Shown piece after piece: positions 14,987-47,248 of a stretch of 64,000 bases of DNA. The DNA lies in the NCBI GenBank assembly GCA_905250025.1, contig CAJNOJ010000065.1, positions 1-64,000 of the forward strand, in the 5' to 3' direction. The translations under genes were made by a program, and so were the position numbers. Under the pieces are notes generated by a model. It saw nothing but the letters and a program-made list of their open reading frames with translations. It did no database searches and had not been told where the DNA came from. Source of the DNA: Adineta ricciae (Eukaryota; Rotifera; Eurotatoria; Adinetida; Adinetidae). Position 1 is the stretch's first letter, and each line of letters opens with the position of its first letter.

Positions 14987-15273
14987 GGTTTTTCTGTCGA
15001 AAATATCGAATGAACTTGTTGTGAAATTGCGCAAGCTAGTAAAGTACAGAAATTACTCTAGTCGAATGGAATCGAATCAGTTTTTCATTCGTAAAACGAA
15101 AATGACCAATCAAAAAAGGACGACCAACACAAAAGATGACACTAGATGTCTTTCACCGACGAAAGTATGCCATGCGCAAGAATTTTATTCGAAATAAAAA
15201 AAACTAACTAAAATGCTTAGCAATCGAATCAATCAACTAATAACTTTGAATCAAGATAACGAAATGTAAGAAT

Positions 15274-18200
15274 TCATGCTGATTGTAAAGGTCTGTAATT
15301 CACAGAGCTCTCTTGACCGAAACGATTTTCGATAAATTGTACAGGCGCTTGTCGTTTTCGCCAGACTTGACCGGCGTTGATTTCGGCATAGATAGTTTCC
15401 ACATCCTTTGCTTTCGTTTCTGGCACGAAGAAAAATGTTAAGAGGAAAAAGATTAATAAAAAACCTGTGAATAAAAAGAATGTGTATTCATGAAGAGCAT
15501 TCTAAAGAAAGAAAGAGAAAGAGGTGCCAATTATTGTCATAGAAGAGTGTACCGTAAACAGTGGTTTAAAACCGAGACCAACTGCAAAGTTAGCTGACCA
15601 GTTGACTAATACTGCAATGCTCGATGCCGGCACACGATATGTTTGATTGAACAACTCCGCTGTAATTAACCATGGAATTGAACCAGGTCCAACACCGAAA
15701 AATGCTACAAACAGAATAGTCATAATCAGCGAGACTTTATTCCAGAATGGAGTGGCTTGAACCAGCAGAGATATAACTAATATCAGACTTGTGAAAAACA
15801 TTCCTGTGATGCCAGTTAAATGAAGAATACGTCGACCAAGACGATCCATGAGGAAAACGCTGATTATAGTAACTACGCTATTGGTTGCACCTAAACCTAA
15901 ATTTGCGTATTCCGATTGTGACTTATCATAGCCAGCTGTTTTGAAAATAGCAGTTGAGTAGTAAATAACAGCATTAATACCAGATAATTGCTGAGATAAT
16001 TGAAGGAACACAGCTATAAACAGTGCCCAACGAACAGTAGGTGTTGTAAACAAATCAAGCATTCGTGCCTAAATATTGCAACTAAATTAACTTCGATCAG
16101 GACCTATCGATGAAAGCTGTACCGTTTGTTGATTTTGACTTTGTTCGACTTGCATAGCGGTGACTTCGTGATGAACATTCGGATGTCCGCGAAGCCATCG
16201 AAGTGCTAAACAGCAAGAATTCCACATTAAAAATGTTTTACCGTAGTCACGTGTTGTCGTACGTACTACTTAACATACTAAATAAAGTTCGTCCTCATCG
16301 AACTCTGTATTGATATATTTATTTTCGTCTTAAAAGTATAGTATTAAATAGAGTTCTGTTTTTCTACTATACAATATGGATTTACAATACCAACAAGATT
16401 TCCTTCTGCTTAGTACGATGTCAACATGTTGATAGTGAGCTTTGCACTACTCTACGCGACTATAAATATCAACAAGAACTAGTTATGATTATCATTCAAA
16501 AGTGTTTCTTAACCAAAAGAATGTATTCAACAACGGTTTTACTTCTCACTTTGGGCCTTTTCGCTACCATGGCTGTAGCACGTCCAGGACGCCGACCATG
16601 GTCAGGTGATCATAATCATCATCATGAAGATTCTGACAATGAAATGACGGGGGAACATGGTGCGCACAAATGGTCAACTTTTCGTGTACCAAGTAGTATT
16701 CGTATCCCACGTGTGTTAGCAGAAAAGTTAGGACGGCCATGGGTAACGTTTACTTCGAAGAAAATCTTCGATGGTAAATATCTGTTGATCAGTCCAGCTC
16801 TGATGTTCAGACTGAAGGATTCCCATAACGAAACCGACCCTGACAGGTCTACTACTCCATCAAGTTCAACAACGGAAGAGTCGATAGTGGATGAAACTAC
16901 ACCCTCAACCATTGATGAAGAATCCACGACAGCGAAACCAGAAGATTCGGGCGAAGAAGAAACAATGACAGCACGTCCACGTTTTTTCAGAAAACGACTC
17001 TTCGAAGACGAAGATGAACAATTACTTTTTCTTGATAGTAAATAAAAAGGGAAGTTATAATTTTTTAACGAAATAAACAAAAAGACAGTAAAGTCAAAAT
17101 AAAAATATTTAACGTCTCGAACATTTTAAACGTATACCCAAATGGACAACGTGCAATCGCTGGAACTTAACAGAACAGACGAACGAACACTATTCTATCG
17201 AGTATACCTTTTTCAGCATCTTCTGGACTGTTCTTTTTCAACAGCAAATATTTTGGACTTTCTGGAACGAACAAGAGTAGAACTACTTGTAGAACGCTGA
17301 AAACAATTGGTAAACCTAACAGATACACAGATGACATTCTATGTAAAATTCCGAAGCAGATAAATTATACTTAACGCATAATGCCATTTGTCTTGAGAAC
17401 CTAATACTTGTTCCAAACCCATCACTTGCGAAACAAATAGAAGGATAACAATTCCCAATTGAAACGAAGCTCCGAGTGTGCCACGTAAGCGAACAGGAGA
17501 AACTTCATTGATATAAGTTGGAGCAACCGATGACCCATAGCCTGTTATTATCATTATTACAACAAGTGCACGATAAAATTATTCTATTGCAATTACCACA
17601 AGCAAGTCCAAGAAAAAATCGTCCGATAATTAAAACTTCATACGAATGAATTGGTTTCGAAATGAACATGAGAACACAGGCAACAAATGACACGACTGTA
17701 TTCAAATACATTCCACCCTTTCTAGACAAAAGAGACGTTCGATGACATATTCTCACATAGAATGGTTACTTACCGTCCTAATCGATCGGTGATAAAGCCT
17801 CCGAACAGACCGCCCACCATTCCACCTAAAGCGAAGACCGAAACAGCTAACGAACTAGAACAGATTGATGATACAACCGGCAAAAATAGTGATCATTCCT
17901 TACAAGATTAATGTGACAGTTGATGCACTAACTTTTGTATCGGGATTTCGCCGATGATTCGTTTCGTTGATAAAACTCTCAATAAACTAAACAATTTTTG
18001 TGTACAGGTCAAATCTCACAATGATCTACTTACATCTTGCGGGGCATTTCTAATTGTCACAGAAAAAGAAATCTTGAAAGCTTAAGAGTATATATTTTCG
18101 TAAACGAAATTCTTACATCACACCCGATGCATAGCCAAAATGAAAAGAAGTGCCACTAATTGCTGCAAAAACAGCTAACAACAATGTACCAGTCATACCC

Positions 18201-25210: not shown

Positions 25211-26510
25211 TCAATTGAGCGAAAAGGTCATTAACATAGTATAGACAAGATTAGCAAACGGTTGTCGTTCGAGAAGAATTCGGTCGGCATCAGCGCCAAA
25301 GTTTTGATGTTCCATGACTTGACCAATTAGACTTATCAGTAGTTTTTGTCCTTCAAATTCTCCATAACGATAAACTAAATATGACCAGAGTAGATGAATA
25401 TATTGTTCTTGTGCTTGATTTATATGATAGATTGTTTTCTCAGATGGTTGGTAGTAAAAATCTGAATTATAATTTGTAACTAAGCAGGGACTGAGAAAAA
25501 GAATGATTTGGATGAGTTTACTAATAGCTGGATCGTGACCAATCAATTGATGTAGTTTTCGTATGAGTTGTTCTGCACGCGCAAGAATGTCTTGACCATA
25601 AACATGGGCGTACACAGCATGACATGCGAATTTTGGGTCGAAATGTACCAGATTATCATTTGAATTGAACAAATCCGATGAAGAGAATAGGAGAAGATAG
25701 TGTACATTGGTTCGAACTAACCATGCACGATCATTACTATTCATGTCCATTGAAAATGCTGGAATTGTTGCACGAAAATATGCAACTATTGACGATAGAC
25801 GAACAGTTAAGACACTAATGAATGTATGTTCTTTCAAACGGCATTTGATTGGTTGACCAGATAAGTATTCCTCGCGTTGCTCTTCAGCTTGCAAAATGGG
25901 TTGTAAACAGAAATGTTCGTATGCACTGCGAACATTTGTTATTTGAATCCAATCATTCGATGATAAAGGCGAAGAAAATTTGTCCACGGAGAGCAGATTC
26001 AATGCAGATAACTAAAAGGAATACATTTGAGATGATAGTCACAAACTCGAACTTGACTTACATCATGTAATACTCGACGCCCGTGTTTTTCACCGGATAC
26101 TGATGCGGGGCCTGTGAGAAGTTTTTCTTGTCGTTGTAAACGGTTAGCTTTAACAAGTTGTAGACGAGCTGCACGTTCTTCATCAGTGCGAATTAAATCT
26201 TTCTGCATACCAACAGCAAAACATTTTGCCAGACGGCATGTTGGACATTGTCGCCTTGTACGTTCATTAACTGGACAGTGCCCACCAAAACGGCAAGGTG
26301 GCAAAGCCTAGATGTAAACGAATTTTTTACGTGCAAAATGCGTGTTCTATCTGATAGAGTACTTACAGAGCCAGTTCGGCCATTTCTCCGGAAGAAAGCT
26401 TTGCATGTTGAACAAGTAATGACACCAAAATTTCGACCTGTGTTCTTGTCAAATCCACAGACGCGACACGGATCGCTTGCAGACATGCGATGAGATAGTT
26501 GAGATTGCAT
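25211..26510 (-). CDS. Nuclear hormone receptor, solitary copy
   Basis: Three exons in phase 0 (26367-26510, 26062-26307, 25211-26011) give 396 residues. The DNA-binding domain starts at about residue 15: CRVCGF opens finger one, the recognition helix is [10 protein letters not shown], and finger two runs [11 protein letters not shown] to [14 protein letters not shown]. Finger one has 14 residues between its cysteine pairs where 13 is the rule. The P-box (S, T, then A in CSTCKA) is unlike the usual EG..G or EG..A forms, so the response element may differ. The remaining 267 codons form a helical ligand-binding domain with the signature [17 protein letters not shown]. No clear activation helix 12 is seen at the C-terminus. 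The intron between the two fingers is in the same place as in the four receptors at 37.8-47.2 kb. Confidence 0.92.
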
Positions 26511-37771: not shown

Positions 37772-39103
37772 CTAGAAAATAACATCTCCTTCAATCCTGT
37801 TGTCATTCATATCACTCGCTTCATGGTCTACTGGCCACATGTTTTGTGTTAATGGGTTCATTTGTTGAAGTTCTTCATGTAGACCACTGATATAATCATC
37901 GATATAAATATCAAGATTTTGAAGATAGAGTATGCACATGATTAACTTGTTCATAAATCTAACGGTATCTTTTACGCCATCACAACGCGATAGAACATAC
38001 CGCCATAATAATTCTATGTAAATATTCTGGGCTGCTAAGATCGATAACGGATCGGTATACAGTCCACTAAACGTAGAATTATCGAGAACTCGATAATTAT
38101 TACAGGATAATACGAGAACGATGAGAATGATTTTCAACAGTATAGGATCATGAATGTACTGTTCTAAGATTTGATTACGTTGTAAAAGACGTCGAGTTAT
38201 GTCAATACCAAAAACATTCAACCACGTGGCAACTAAATTCTTGTGTGGTGATGGCTGCATCAGAGGTTCATTAATATTGATCATCACACCGAAGTGATAT
38301 TTAACTAGACTGACTTTGTCATCAATATTTATTTGCTCGAATTCAGGAATATGTTTGAAATAGTTGATAAAGGCTGGAAAAAGAGCCGAGAATTCATTGA
38401 GAAATTCATGGATGGATGTGTGCTGAATGGATGGAAAGCATGAGAATTGAGGATTTTTAGTAGCTGTACATGTGCTTTCATATGCGTGGAATATATTCGA
38501 CAAAATGACTTGATCACACGGCGAAAGGCAGTTGACAGGTTTGGGCGACATAGAAAGTAATACTGGAGATTTCATCTATCAAGAGAAATGCAAATCAGAG
38601 TACATCTTTACTGTTTTCGAAATCTTGATGAAAAGTAGAATAAACATTTTCTGTGCTATCAACTAGAGATTACACGTCAGAAGTATTCAGTAGCTCGAAC
38701 ATCGTTCACATACCCATTTGGCGCACTGCTGTTTTGGAACCTTTCCCCGCTTTAGTCGATTGATTTCTACTAGTTGATTACGAGCATCTCGTTCTTCGTC
38801 CGATAGAATCATTCCCTTGTCCATTCCCACACGAAAACATTTCGCCAGTCGACAGCAATTACACGATCGACGAAACTTGTACGATATTATACAATCACCG
38901 TCATTATGACAAACATATTGTTGGACCTTTCGAAGGCAGGAAAGCAATTACAGGCATAGACAAAAACAATGTAAACATACACCGAGTTTGATGGCATTTC
39001 GACGGAAGAAAGCTTTACAAGGCATACATGTCGATACACCGAAGTTTAATCCAATTGCTGCATCACCACAAACCAAACATCGACCGTAGTCTTTGTTTGA
39101 CAT
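37772..39103 (-). CDS. Nuclear hormone receptor A of the tandem cluster
   Basis: Three exons in phase 0 (38981-39103, 38714-38926, 37772-38575) give 379 residues. Finger one is [18 protein letters not shown] with recognition helix [10 protein letters not shown]; finger two runs CHNDGDC to [18 protein letters not shown]. All eight zinc cysteines are present with normal spacing. The C-terminal extension has EINRLKRGK. The ligand-binding domain carries the family signature [22 protein letters not shown] (helices 3-5 region) and ends MWPVDHEAS and a short acidic tail without an evident AF-2 helix. The P-box (M, P, then A) is unusual. Finger two and the intron before it are almost identical in DNA to receptor B, though the ligand-binding exons are only about half identical in protein. 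Ligand unknown. Confidence 0.91.
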
Positions 39104-40593
39104 TTCATAGTACCAAGGACAAAGTTTAACCCGATCAATCTAGAAACGATTACAGAATAATATGAAAACGGGATATGTGTATGCCATGTAAATAGAATCT
39201 AATCCAAACTCGTCCACATCACCACACGCGTCTTATAGAATAATTACGACAAGTTTTGTTTGCTGTATAATATATCTCATAGTCTGACCAGATTCAGTAT
39301 TAATGAACATTTACTTATGTTTTACACTGCCAACGGCTGTCGTGCAAAGAATTTTGAATATTACATTGTCGTGGCTTTATTGTACAAAGGAGAACATTTC
39401 TTTCACGATAAGTTCTTTTGTCTGACTTATTTGATGATCCTTCGTTTATATATGAACCTCATGAATTGGTATAATTATGTGTTAGCAATGAGCCTCATAT
39501 CCCGATTATAACATCAATGAACGCTAATTGTATATCTAAAACATTTGAGACGTTTGAAGAAACTGCTATTTTCATTACACAAGAAAATGCTGAAAAAAAA
39601 TAGAAAACTTTGATACTGGGTTTTTTTCTCAACAATTCAGCGTAGAAATAGAAAAAAGTGATGCTTATATATATGGGTGTGTCCATTAGAAGTTGTCACG
39701 TCTAACCGGCAATCTAGTCTGATTTTAATAAAACTTTCAGGATTTGTAGACGTCTGATTGTTGGTAACTTCGGAGGTGAACATTTTTTTGGTAGAAAAAT
39801 CTCGAAATATTTAACTTTACGAACTACAGATGATATCAATGGAACCGCAGGTGATTTTAAAACGATGGAATTACTTTTTAGCGACAGTGTAGATGAAAAA
39901 TAAATAAGAAATACTAATTTATCACATCTGGAATGTTTGCTTCCCTTGATGTCAAAGTTAGGGAAACAACAAGCCAATGCATGTTATAAGGCATGAACTG
40001 ACCTACTAAACTGTCAATTCAGCATTTCTTGTTCATTTCACTTTTGATGAAAGCCCAGGAATCGCCTCAAAGTCATCTGCAGAACCAAACAGTTTTTCGA
40101 AAACTTCGAATATTCTGATGCCGATTATCATGAGGACTCAGGATATTATATTGGTTACTAGGTTTGATCCGGTTTTCATAGAGAAAAATCACGTTTTCTC
40201 TGAAAGAAGATCAGAACAGCTTAGTAGTGTTCTTATTATCTATCAGGGAAGACAAAGGTGAAATTCGAACTATTTACTGCCAAACTGATAAGCATCAAGA
40301 ACGTAATAAACGCCGAAAGTTTTATCAAAATCGGAGGAGGTCGTCAGATGGGCCGGTGATTTCCGGTAGATATACCCATGTATATGTAGATATATTAATG
40401 TGTTGAGTGTTTCACTATACAAAAATACTAAGACAACAGAAGGTGTTTTAACAAAACAAAATATGATGTTTCATGATTGTAAATTAAACACTAATGTATG
40501 TTCATACAAAGACTGCTAAAATTACTCAATCGCGATATTGAACAAACCAACCGGTCGATTGATTGGAATTGGCTGTTAATCATTCGCAGAACA
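39104..40593. other. Spacer between receptors A and B, with a candidate mobile element
   Basis: About 1.5 kb. Most of the right half is taken by a candidate element with inverted ends (listed separately). The left part, including an open frame at 39260-39511, looks non-coding. Confidence 0.5.
39666..40395. mobile_element. Candidate non-autonomous DNA element with imperfect inverted ends
   Basis: Left end, from about 39666, reads TATATATATGGGTGTGTCC, and an inner block GATTTTAATAAAACTTTC lies at 39721-39738. The right side carries both in reverse complement: GAAAGTTTTATCAAAATC at 40315-40332 (17 of 18 matching the left inner block) and a TATACCCATGTATAT stretch around 40371-40385. A CCGG-containing patch also sits between the two blocks on each side. 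Size is about 0.7 kb with no transposase frame, so it would be a MITE-like or decayed element. Target-site duplication is obscured by TA repeats, and the superfamily is not recognised. Confidence 0.45.
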
Positions 40594-41941
40594 TTAAAGA
40601 GCAATATCTTCTGCAACGTCCATATCTATTATTTCTTCAAATTGCGATGAATTTGGCCACATATTCTTCACTATTGGATCCATCTGTTCAATTTCCCATC
40701 GAAAATCGTTTATATGGTCGTCGATGTCCATGTCCAAATTCTTCATGTACAAAACACACATGATTAATTTGTTAAAGAATTGAACTGCATGCTTGTGACT
40801 TGCCGAACGCGAAAGAATGTATCTCCATAGTAATTCGACGTAAATATTTTGAGCAGAAAATATACCTAATGGATCGTCACAAATCTGGTCTATATCAATG
40901 TAATGAAGATTACGGCCATTACTACTGGAGAGGACCAGGATAACAATAAGAAGTTTCAAAATCATTGGGTCATTTAAATATGCTTGAAGCAGTGCACTGG
41001 ATTTTAGAAGACGCTGAGCAATTTTGACACCGAAAACATTTGTCCATGTTACAATTGCATTTTGCAAAGACATCAGATGCATCATCGGTCCACTCAAATT
41101 GGCTATAATACCGAAATGATTCTTCAACAAACGTACTTTATCATCGATAGTAAATCTAGCAAATTCTGGTATGTGGTTCAGAAATTGAATACAACTTCGA
41201 AATTCGAAGGATATTTCGTTGCAATATTCATGTAGAGATGTGTATTGGATGTTCGGAACACGTTGTAATTCAACATTTTTCGCTATTGTACAGTTGTTTT
41301 CATATGCACCAAAGATGTTGCCAAGAACAACCTGATCATTCGGACGAAGGCCATACAGAGGATTGGTTGAGATGATCAGTAAAGGTGATGGTTGCATCTA
41401 AAATTGACATTTCTCTCTTTTCTTATCATAGTCGATCACAATCTAAATTCACAAGCAGACGTGCCTTTCCTCACACTTATGAGATTCCTATGCACTCTCC
41501 TTGCTATTTATAGCATATCAAGTGTGTCTAAAGAAACATCTTCCACATACCCATTTGGCGCACTGCTGTTTTGGAACCTTTCCTCGTTTTAGTCGATTGA
41601 TTTCTACTAGTTGATTACGAGCATCTCGTTCTTCGTCCGATAGAATCATTCCCTTGTCCATTCCCACACGAAAACATTTCGCCAGTCGACAGCAATTACA
41701 CGATCGACGAAACTTGTACGATATTATACAATCACCGTCATTATGACAAACATATTGTTGGACCTTTCGAAGGCAGGAAAGCAATTACAGGCATAGACAA
41801 AAAACAATGTAAACATACACCGAGTTTGATGGCATTTCGACGGAAGAAAGCTTTGCAAGGCATACACGTCGGTATGCCGAAGTTTAATCCAATTGCTGCA
41901 TCATCACAAACCAAACATCGACCATGATCTTTCTTGGACAT
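40594..41941 (-). CDS. Nuclear hormone receptor B of the tandem cluster
   Basis: Three exons of the same lengths as receptor A (41819-41941, 41551-41763, 40594-41397) give 379 residues. Finger one is [18 protein letters not shown]; the Gly that normally follows the second cysteine is Asp here. The recognition helix is [10 protein letters not shown]. Finger two and its C-terminal extension are the same as in receptor A apart from at most a residue. The ligand-binding domain has HIPEFARFTIDDKVRLLKNHFG and ends MWPNSSQFEE and an acidic tail; it is about half identical to that of A. The ATG at 41941 matches the start of A; an upstream in-frame ATG at 42010 is possible. It probably arose by tandem duplication, with later conversion of the middle exon. 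Ligand unknown. Confidence 0.91.
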
Positions 41942-42643: not shown

Positions 42644-44364
42644 CTAAGAAGCATTCTTGTTTTCTGCACTTGGCCACATACTTTTCATGAGTGGGTCCAT
42701 TTGTTCGATCTCCTCGGTCATATTACTGATATAACCATCGACCATCAAATGTACATTTAATAAATACAAGGAAAATTGAACCAATCTATTGAAATATTTT
42801 ATTGCATCGGGGATCGTTGATGAACGTGACAGGATGTATTTCCATAGAAGTTCAATATACACACTCTGGGCGGCAAAGATCGATAGCGATGTGTTAGAAT
42901 CGTAATCGAGAATGAGATCACACCGTTTGCGAAGGTTCCCACTTGAAAAGGCAGTCACAGTAAGGAAAAGTTTTAATATCACAGGATCATACGAAAATTC
43001 TTGTATTCGTTCAATGCATCGTAAAAGTTGATCAGCTAAGCTAATACCGAAAATGTTTATAAACGATACAGCTAAATTCGTTGATACACCAGGATGAATG
43101 ATAGCTTCGTAAATATTGTTAACATTTCCGAAATGATTCCGTACCAAATAGATTTTGTCACGGAGGCGGAGGGAATCAAATTCAGGCAAGCGTTTGAAGT
43201 ATTCAATTAAAACTTTGTGTGATTTCGAGTATTCGTTTAAGAATGTATATAAATTCGTATGCACCACGCATGGAAACTCAGGGTACTGCGATTGTCGAGG
43301 CGCAATACATGTCAACTCGAATGTATTGTAGACATTTTGAATATTGGCTTGATCAGACGTGTAAATATGTGAATAATCTCGATGTGTCAAACGTTTTTCC
43401 GGTATAGCCACTGTCTAAAAAAACAATACAAACCATAATTTGTGTGTTCAGATTGACTTACTTGCGTCTATATATGCCGACTGACACAGCAACGCAATTT
43501 ATTTGACATATTAAAGTGCAATCCTTGTTTCGTTCTCGATTAGTCTATTCGTCGGGAAAAAAGCTACTCTCAAGATTTATGTTATGTTCTTAATATTGTA
43601 TGCCCTCGTAATTATACCGACAGAAAAGAAAACAAAGATGAAGTATCACATGTATAGACTGTTTTTTTCGTATATATTAATGAAAAAAAAAATGGCTCGA
43701 GCGGGGAATGGAGAAGAAAGGAAGAAAAACAGGGTAGCTTTTTCTTTTGTGTAGAATGTGAGAGAACGTTTAGAAGAAAGTAGAACATCGGCGAATGACG
43801 TAGATAAATGAGTCATAGTCCAAAGAGCAACTGTCATTATAAAAATGCACTAAAAGAGCACAGACGCGTCAGAAGACCTTCAGTTATTCCGAGAGAACAT
43901 CAATTTTCACGTCAATAAACGCATCGATTCCCTTTAATTACGAAGTACGAACATACCATATCTGATTTCTTTGGTGCTACTAATTTCTCTCGTTGTTGGC
44001 GATGTTGTGCAGCTCGTTCCTTTCGAGCTTGCTTTTCAGCTTCCGAAAGAATCAATTCTTTTTTCATTCCAACATGGAAACATTTGGCTAATCGGCAACA
44101 ATTGCATATCCGCCGATAAACATGATTTATTGGACAATCACCGTCATTTGGACATTTAAAATCGTAGTTCTAACGAAAACAACAGGCGAAAGCACCAAAT
44201 CATTACAAGCAAATGGTGATTTCACTTACACCAAGTTTAACTGCATTTCGTCTAAAGAATGCTTTACACGCCATGCAAGTTAACACACCGAAATTAAAAC
44301 CAATTGATTTATCACCGCAAACGAGGCATGGACTATTGATTCGCGATACTGACGTAGCCATCAT
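42644..44364 (-). CDS. Nuclear hormone receptor C of the tandem cluster
   Basis: Three exons (44230-44364, 43957-44169, 42644-43414) give 372 residues. Finger one is [18 protein letters not shown] with recognition helix [10 protein letters not shown]. Finger two runs CPNDGDC to [18 protein letters not shown], followed by a long basic extension rich in Gln, Arg and Lys. The ligand-binding domain has the signature [22 protein letters not shown] and ends [11 protein letters not shown]. The second intron is 542 bases, ten times the local norm, and may hold regulatory sequence. The first exon is nearly identical in DNA to that of receptor D, whereas finger two and the ligand-binding domain differ much more. 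Same gene structure as A, B and D. Ligand unknown. Confidence 0.91.
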
Positions 44365-45863: not shown

Positions 45864-47248
45864 TATTGTACGTTGGTCAGGTTCATATCACTGGTATCTT
45901 CTGTAACACGTAAGCTGTTTGGCGACGGACATATAATACATTGTAACAGTGGTACCATGTTTTTTACGTGAGTCTCCGACTTCAACATGAATCGATCGAC
46001 AGCGAGACAAGTTCGTTGTAACCAAAGTACGTTTAACACGAACGAGTTGAAAAACTTGATAGTATCTTCGGTGGAAGGCAACCTCGAACGGAGATATCGC
46101 CAGAGCAGCTCAACGTAGACGCTTTCACTGGCAAAGATAGCCAGAGTATCTTCATAGATTACGCTTGTGTCGATGTTGTAAGTGTATTTATTCATGCCAA
46201 GAGAGAAGCACCAGATAATCATGATGAGCTTGAGCAGGATGGGATCGTATAAATATTCACGTTCTCGCTCAAAAGATATGCGGATCTCATGAGCGCCAAT
46301 ATCTCCGAATGCAGCTTGTAGTGAAAATATGAAATTTTGATGACTTGATCGTTTCAGTATGGACTCGTTCATGTGAAATAACGGCCCAAAATTGGTTCGA
46401 ACTAGACGTGCTCTGTCCATGATTGGTAATTTGTTGAACTCAGGAATCAATTTGAAAAAGTCGAACAGTACTCGAACTCGTTGTTCAGAGTCATTGAAAA
46501 ACGTGTCTACGGCGGTAAGTTTCAATACAGGTGCATTTGTAAGTGGCTCGAAATCCTTTTGCGAATAGACTCGCTCGTAAGTATGGAAAATATTCGTAAG
46601 GATCACTTGATCGAACGAAGACAATGCTTTGGGGCATTTTTCTAATGAATATGCATTGAGATTGGATCGAATCTAAATATAAAGAACTTATTAGATTTCT
46701 CGTCGATGTACTAGCTTATAACTGTCATATATCAAAAGAATAGAATTTCATGTGAATTTTCTATGGTAACAATCCACGTATGTAGCACACCTTCGGTTAT
46801 AATTAATTGAGTTAGTTTTATCCCAAGTTTACCTTTCTTGTATGGCACATTAGTTTTCCTTCTTCTCGTTTTCTTCGATTTTGTTCCACTAAGTCTTTGC
46901 GTGCTTGCTTCTCGCTTTCTGATAATATGGAGGATCTTTGCATACCAACGCGAAAGCATTTCGCTAATCGACAGCAATTACACATTCGCCGATATTCGTG
47001 CGTTATTACGCAATCTCCATTTTGATAGCAGATGAATTCAATTTTCTAACAGATCACCAAGATAAAGAATCAAATAGAAAGAATTCCAATCAACTTACAC
47101 CAAGTTTAACTGCATTTCGTCTAAAGAACGCTTTACACGCCATGCAAGTTAACACACCGAAATTACAACCAATTGATTTAGCACCACAAACATAACATGG
47201 TTCCAGTTGCCGAGATTTACTGGTTCTTGTAGACGGGTCTTCTTCCAT
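45863..47248 (-). CDS. Nuclear hormone receptor D of the tandem cluster
   Basis: Three exons (47099-47248, 46833-47045, 45863-46672) give 390 residues. The N-terminus has a longer charged leader (MEEDPSTRTSKSRQ). Finger one is CYVCGAKSIGCNFGVLTC, with an extra cysteine before NFG, and recognition helix [10 protein letters not shown]. Finger two runs CYQNGDC to [18 protein letters not shown] with a basic extension (EQNRRKREEGK). The ligand-binding domain has LIPEFNKLPIMDRARLVRTNFG. The annotated end is TSDMNLTNVQ, but a peptide with an AF-2-like helix lies just beyond in another frame, so the true C-terminus may be longer. Exon one is nearly identical to that of receptor C. Ligand unknown. Confidence 0.9.

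Follow-up and report, generated by a model that had tools for sequence, protein, structure and literature searches.

Nuclear-receptor genes A and B

The window analysed here, i.e. the whole 64,000-base stretch C65:1-64000 (GC content 36.05%), carries two neighbouring nuclear-receptor genes, designated receptor A and receptor B, which share a nearly identical segment encoding part of their DNA-binding domain next to ligand-binding exons that have diverged widely. All results come from a single genome assembly of 130.46 Mb in 1033 contigs, which is consistent with a bdelloid rotifer and was searched as a whole. Both genes are on the minus strand with three exons each (Table 1), arranged as direct repeats with a spacing of 2.8 kb on one chromosome. 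Their C4-type double-finger DNA-binding domains match the Pfam family zf-C4 (PF00105) at 70.7 bits for A and 67.8 bits for B, for a cut-off of 21.1, and the best match of the A domain in the PDB is thyroid hormone receptor beta (E 1.4e-19). Regarding the ligand-binding domain, B passes the Pfam threshold and A remains below it (Table 1); in a tree of these domains, A and B come out as sisters with 98% support.

Table 1. Coordinates in the window of the receptor exons, introns and homogenised stretches.
Feature	Position	Strand	Basis or remark
Receptor A exon 1 (first zinc finger)	38981..39103	-	Reading frame, Pfam zf-C4 match, splice sites
Receptor A intron 1, 54 bases, within homogenised tract	38927..38980	-	Same as B intron 1 save one T
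Receptor A exon 2 (second zinc finger and C-terminal extension)	38714..38926	-	
Receptor A exon 3 (ligand-binding domain and stop)	37772..38575	-	Open reading frame of 267 residues; Pfam Hormone_recep 18.6 bits, cut-off 23.5
Receptor B exon 1 (first finger)	41819..41941	-	Pfam zf-C4 match
Receptor B intron 1, 55 bases, within homogenised tract	41764..41818	-	
Receptor B exon 2 (second finger and C-terminal extension)	41551..41763	-	
Receptor B exon 3 (ligand-binding domain and stop)	40594..41397	-	Open reading frame of 267 residues; Pfam Hormone_recep 29.6 bits, above cut-off
Homogenised (very probably converted) tract in A	38707..39033	-	Alignment columns 417-746; quartet sites turn from allelic to neighbour pattern
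Homogenised (very probably converted) tract in B	41544..41871	-	Quartet sites turn from allelic to neighbour pattern
Receptor C first-finger stretch, nearly equal to D	44224..44322	-	4 differences over 99 bases
Receptor D first-finger stretch, nearly equal to C	47093..47191	-	Alignment with C

Sequence identity between the neighbours

Between A and B, intron 1 shows no substitution over 54 aligned bases, with a single 1-base insertion/deletion (indel) in a T run, and exon 2 differs at 2 of 213 bases, both changes being synonymous. A first-pass annotation, made by eye, had reported two base differences and one indel over these two segments together (38714-38980 in A, 41551-41818 in B); the base-by-base alignment returns the same figures (2/267 plus the 1-base indel), and the coordinates are correct. 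The eleven or so differences it had counted in exon 1 are likewise recovered (11/123), and the ligand-binding exons, put at about 50% identity in protein, are 45% identical in protein and 58.2% in DNA (468/804). The abrupt end of identity that it placed at the donor of the next intron needs a slight correction: the two copies of intron 2 are indeed unalignable (61 identical out of 132 aligned columns), but identity extends 7 bases beyond the exon-2 donor before the alignment breaks down. At the other end, the strongly homogenised tract, about 330 bases long, starts inside exon 1; over its whole length A and B differ at 4 of 327 bases plus the indel. A GENECONV-like permutation of the coding polymorphisms gives p <= 1e-4, which rules out chance. 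Uniform synonymous divergence over the exons, which the first-pass annotation had set against conversion, was not found, the synonymous divergence (dS) between A and B being 0.045 in exon 2 and saturated in the ligand-binding exon.

The homologous contig as a control

When the 267-base segment was searched in the genome, it was found in 8 places, namely A, B, two positions on contig C6 (93-94%) and four weaker receptor matches (68-78%). The C6:865001-951000 region is collinear with the whole window (93.6% identity over 63,547 aligned positions) and bears the same tandem pair, named A' and B'; neither the window nor the matching C6 stretch contains N runs. Relative to the window, C6 has extra DNA of about 4.8 kb (window about 15143-15320) and about 2.6 kb (18584); the former is flanked by a repeat of about 178 bases, which suggests an insertion.

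Over intron 1 and exon 2, the neighbours differ at 2/267 (A-B) and 2/270 (A'-B') positions, versus 14/267 (A-A') and 17/268 (B-B') for the homologues, and the four Fisher tests of neighbour against homologue differences, with counts on one column more, give p values of 0.0003-0.0018. The genes and their surroundings provide 444 informative quartet sites, of which 421 follow the allelic pattern (A-A', B-B'), 21 the neighbour pattern and 2 the cross pattern. As many as 17 of the 21 neighbour sites are consecutive, for a longest run of at most 4 in 20,000 shuffles, and they span late exon 1, intron 1 and exon 2 up to base 7 of intron 2. Phylogenetic inference with IQ-TREE on the four sequences agrees with this pattern: over the 330 columns of the tract, the allelic tree is rejected (log-likelihood difference 69.7, approximately unbiased (AU) test 7e-57), and the neighbour tree is rejected by the ligand-binding exon, intron 2 and the upstream region (log-likelihood differences of 637, 112 and 160, respectively).

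In exon 2, dS between homologues (0.17 for A, 0.26 for B) equals that of the ligand-binding exon (0.17 and 0.25), and the tract thus runs on a normal clock; between neighbours, it comes down to 0.045 (A-B) and 0.022 (A'-B'). Had exchange ceased once the homologues separated, A-B and A'-B' would now differ at least as much as A-A'; since they differ far less, exchange has occurred on each homologue since the split. At least one conversion per homologue took place after the homologues had separated, and it is recent relative to that split. Homogenisation extends to silent sites and to the intron, as expected of an interlocus gene conversion tract. Polarised with four outgroup receptors, which are distant so that single sites are noisy, 5 of 9 neighbour-type sites appear derived on C6 and 3 on C65, with 1 undecided. 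In line with the local gene conversion proposed at first pass, the conversion test including the homologous copies finds the tree flipping within the tract only, and it is very probable that gene conversion between neighbours homogenises the DNA-binding cassette of the tandem duplicates A and B on each chromosome.

Protein consequences in the DNA-binding domain

Among A, B, A' and B', 10 positions vary in the 112-residue DNA-binding region. Four of them (I38T, H48Q, D88G and V104I) set the homologues apart and are common to both receptors of each, from which it follows that amino-acid changes in this domain have reached both receptors on a given chromosome; three (N3K, Y6H and S24P) set A apart from B on both homologues, and the remaining three are private to single genes. 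Exon 2 accounts for three replacements between homologues. H48 is the first of the five residues that separate the first cysteine of finger 2 from the second, a segment known as the D-box. The uniform DNA contacts foreseen in the first-pass annotation are thus borne out in part only: the protein encoded by exon 2 is identical between neighbours within each homologue, but N3K, Y6H and S24P remain between A and B on both of them.

Other tandem receptor loci

A second receptor pair on contig C127, E1/E2, is accompanied by another block, E1'/E2', 19 kb away (C127:78301-82600 and C127:97201-101200), and shows the same flip, with 26 consecutive neighbour sites. The fingers of E1 and E2 coincide almost fully (81/81 in finger 1, 77/78 in finger 2), and the tract differs at 4/359 positions between E1 and E2 versus 38/355 between E1 and E1', including a finger intron with 1/60 differences between the neighbours of the first block versus 19/56 between blocks; conversely, the ligand-binding stretch differs at 270/711 positions for E1-E2 and 25/711 for E1-E1'. 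In the genome, matches of 94-100% to E1 were found at the two C127 blocks only, and these blocks are probably two homologues joined in one contig. With this second locus, the homogenisation of the cassette is recurrent and not a single accident. Of note, a screen of BLAST pieces had missed C127, the cassette being averaged into a longer 74% match, and the locus was found by finger-by-finger comparison and quartet alignment.

Back in the window, receptors C and D, the ligand-binding domains of which are 28% identical, share a first-finger stretch (Table 1). Their exon 1 is identical at 88/96 bases, and at 25/28 silent third positions versus a pooled background of 138/289 (p 1.2e-5, the pairs not being independent), while on C6 the exon 1 of C' and D' is less alike (84/96). 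Codons 12-31 of D are the same as in C' (60/60) but differ at 4/60 positions from its own homologue D'. C and D thus have a homogenised first finger and make up a partial case. A further match to a receptor ligand-binding domain (25304-25972; 31% identical to A) lies outside the A-D array.

Altogether, a homogenised tract was found at two loci in full and at one in part out of the 11 tandem receptor loci examined. Regarding the other eight, C57 was taken with its homologue C88 and C14 with its homologue C71, two of the three genes were considered at C19, and the two genes of C92, with a finger 2 of unequal length, were judged by eye. Both fingers of one pair were compared at C46 and C156 only; at C14, the comparison of finger 1 came from one homologue and that of finger 2 from the other, and the remaining negatives rest on one finger, so that a first-finger tract of the C/D kind may have escaped in some of them. 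The count excludes C367, C382, C98 and C200, which yielded no comparable pair, as well as C16 and C65:409-421 kb. On C13, 335 bases are 84.8% identical between two of four pieces, in none of which a finger motif was found, and this locus was left uncounted. The C445 pair, 96% identical over 651 bases and then not at all, was rejected, the break being an N in the contig and hence an assembly break. Same-contig pairs on C38, C139, C237, C412, C448 and C484, in direct orientation, 8-20 kb apart and about 92-98% identical, were also left out; these are probably homologous copies that the assembly has placed head to tail in one contig, and the two searched in the genome (C412 and C237) gave no other strong copies.

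These loci belong to a large expansion of nuclear receptors, with at least 182 zf-C4 matches in the genome (150 of 359 candidates scored), many of them clustered, and 86 matches to the ligand-binding domain of A, many in tandem clusters. Two finger matches about 350-440 bases apart were seen at C18:28606-29123, C21:49629-50157, C85:253392-253967, C196:32186-32681, C232:47414-47992 and C320:91890-92394; these are candidate receptors with two DNA-binding domains, a type reported for rotifers in PMC10497141. In tandem arrays of this kind, receptor trees built on the DNA-binding domain can mislead on gene history.

Weighing of the evidence and alternative explanations

Several observations weigh against conversion between neighbours. 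The ends of the tract were picked by eye from the same data as those tested, and p-values are consequently not strict, although the tree reversal is a large one. Taken alone, exon 1 is undecided between the two trees (AU 0.32 for neighbours, 0.70 for alleles), and site 416 (S24P) sides with the gene, yet the preceding site 406 sides with the chromosome. Synonymous changes between neighbours in exon 2 amount to only 2 and 1, which makes the timing rough. At C127, E1' and E2' differ at 17/355 positions in all, of which 3/56 in the intron and 14/299 in coding sequence; the latter being about the divergence between blocks (15-19/299), post-split exchange is clear in one C127 block only. No such tract was found at 8 of the 11 tandem loci (C57, C46, C94, C156, C14, C12, C19 and C92), within the coverage of fingers given above. 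Last, homologous copies appear to be joined head to tail in other contigs, and one contig has an N at a break.

This last point bears on the best surviving alternative, namely an assembly artefact whereby near-identical cassettes were collapsed or swapped, leaving both genes with the sequence of a single copy. In its favour, some contigs apparently hold both homologues in tandem, and genome size, GC content and homologue divergence resemble those of A. ricciae ARIC003, obtained by Illumina sequencing after whole-genome amplification and assembled into 135.6 Mb at 35.5% GC (PMC7943196); for this species, a KS of about 0.14 and a median divergence of 4.6% between homologues are given in PMC5916493. 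The neighbours nevertheless keep differences within the tract, those between A and B given above and 2/330 between A' and B', and a collapse would require identity above that of the homologues, which stayed separate at 5-6%. Five neighbour-type sites near the right edge are 10-43 bases from the first gene-specific site, a distance linked by one short read for the read length assumed, and the longest identical stretch between A and A' within the tract is 68 bases. As the pattern is also shared by the two homologues and recurs at a second locus, without N runs in either contig stretch, an artefact is very improbable.

Less probable still is a one-off recent duplication or exon shuffle, which would have put the DNA-binding cassette of A before the ligand-binding exon of B without later exchange. 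The 3' end of the tract is close to an exon boundary, as this scenario would have it, but such an event predicts, if it preceded the homologue split, that A and B differ at least as much as A and A' (about 5%) and, if it followed the split, that it happened twice with the same ends; besides, a foreign cassette is unnecessary since A and B are sisters by their ligand-binding domains.

Strong purifying selection on the DNA-binding domain, intron included and without conversion, is hardly credible. The zf-C4 DNA-binding domains are conserved, and A and B have full ones well above the Pfam cut-off. Between homologues, however, the tract varies like the rest, in exon 2 by both dS and replacements and in intron 1 by 4/54 and 4/55 differences plus indels, and selection cannot give neighbours common silent and intron changes specific to their homologue. 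It had been argued at first pass that selection on protein alone cannot explain a near-identical intron, and the lack of any special conservation of the tract between homologues upholds this view. As for conversion mediated by complementary DNA, for which no point in favour was found, it is refuted by intron 1 lying within the homogenised tract of A and B, as does the finger intron in that of E1 and E2.

Proposed mechanism and significance

For conversion between neighbours, a plausible course can be outlined. A and B would be old tandem duplicates of one nuclear-receptor gene, between which non-crossover homologous recombination on the same chromosome, by intrachromatid or sister repair, would repeatedly overwrite a cassette of about 330 bases comprising the last part of exon 1, intron 1 and the whole of exon 2. 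Double-strand breaks are the most likely trigger, and the template would be in cis, on the same chromosome, and not in trans; it is DNA, as intron 1 is inside the tract. Exchange is limited to the tract because homology ends there, the 5' flank and intron 2 being unalignable and the ligand-binding exon 58% identical. Constraint on the fingers may have slowed divergence enough to permit exchange, which would in turn have preserved the intron, older rounds of homogenisation having presumably kept intron 1 alignable. Both receptors would then keep binding much the same DNA and answer different ligands. Such a combination of constraint and exchange needs no selection for a shared DNA target.

A more far-reaching idea, that of a 'shared reader, diversified sensor', is that recurrent conversion keeps the DNA-binding cassettes of linked receptors matched while their ligand-binding domains diversify freely, and that selection favours this arrangement; on the sequences at hand, it is rather doubtful. 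If true, each homologue would have its own matched version, including the D-box replacement H48Q, and the receptor cluster would link a multitude of ligands to a single set of target genes. Whatever its cause, the locus offers a clean natural case in which the two halves of the same receptor genes are under opposite regimes, with a homologous control in the same genome.

Comparison with known systems

In concerted evolution, paralogues within a genome are more alike than their counterparts on the other homologue or in another species, at silent and non-coding sites included. Domain-limited conversion next to divergent selected exons is exemplified by RHD/RHCE and the red/green opsins, pairs which are young and nearly identical overall. 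The A/B pair is, like these, a mosaic of homogenised and diverged segments but, unlike them, its diverged part is down to 45% identity in protein and exchange is seen on both homologues. Domain-limited concerted evolution is therefore a process of known kind; regarding the DNA-binding cassettes of receptors, no published report was found in a literature search, to which subscription journals were mostly inaccessible. Mammalian Hsp70 genes (PMC5865164) are an example of tandem duplicates that evolve in concert through interlocus gene conversion, and A and B are likewise more alike than the homologues; compared with this type, they are homogenised in one protein domain only, the partner domain being at silent saturation. 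In bdelloids, as far as the accessible parts of PMC5916493 and PMC3464624 go, conversion is described between homologous (allelic) copies, the homogenisation being attributed to break repair. Unlike in those descriptions, the neighbours A and B are homogenised while the homologues remain 5-6% apart in the same tract so that, if the organism is an asexual bdelloid, these bases are exchanged faster between neighbours than between homologues, a point of relevance to break repair in such genomes.

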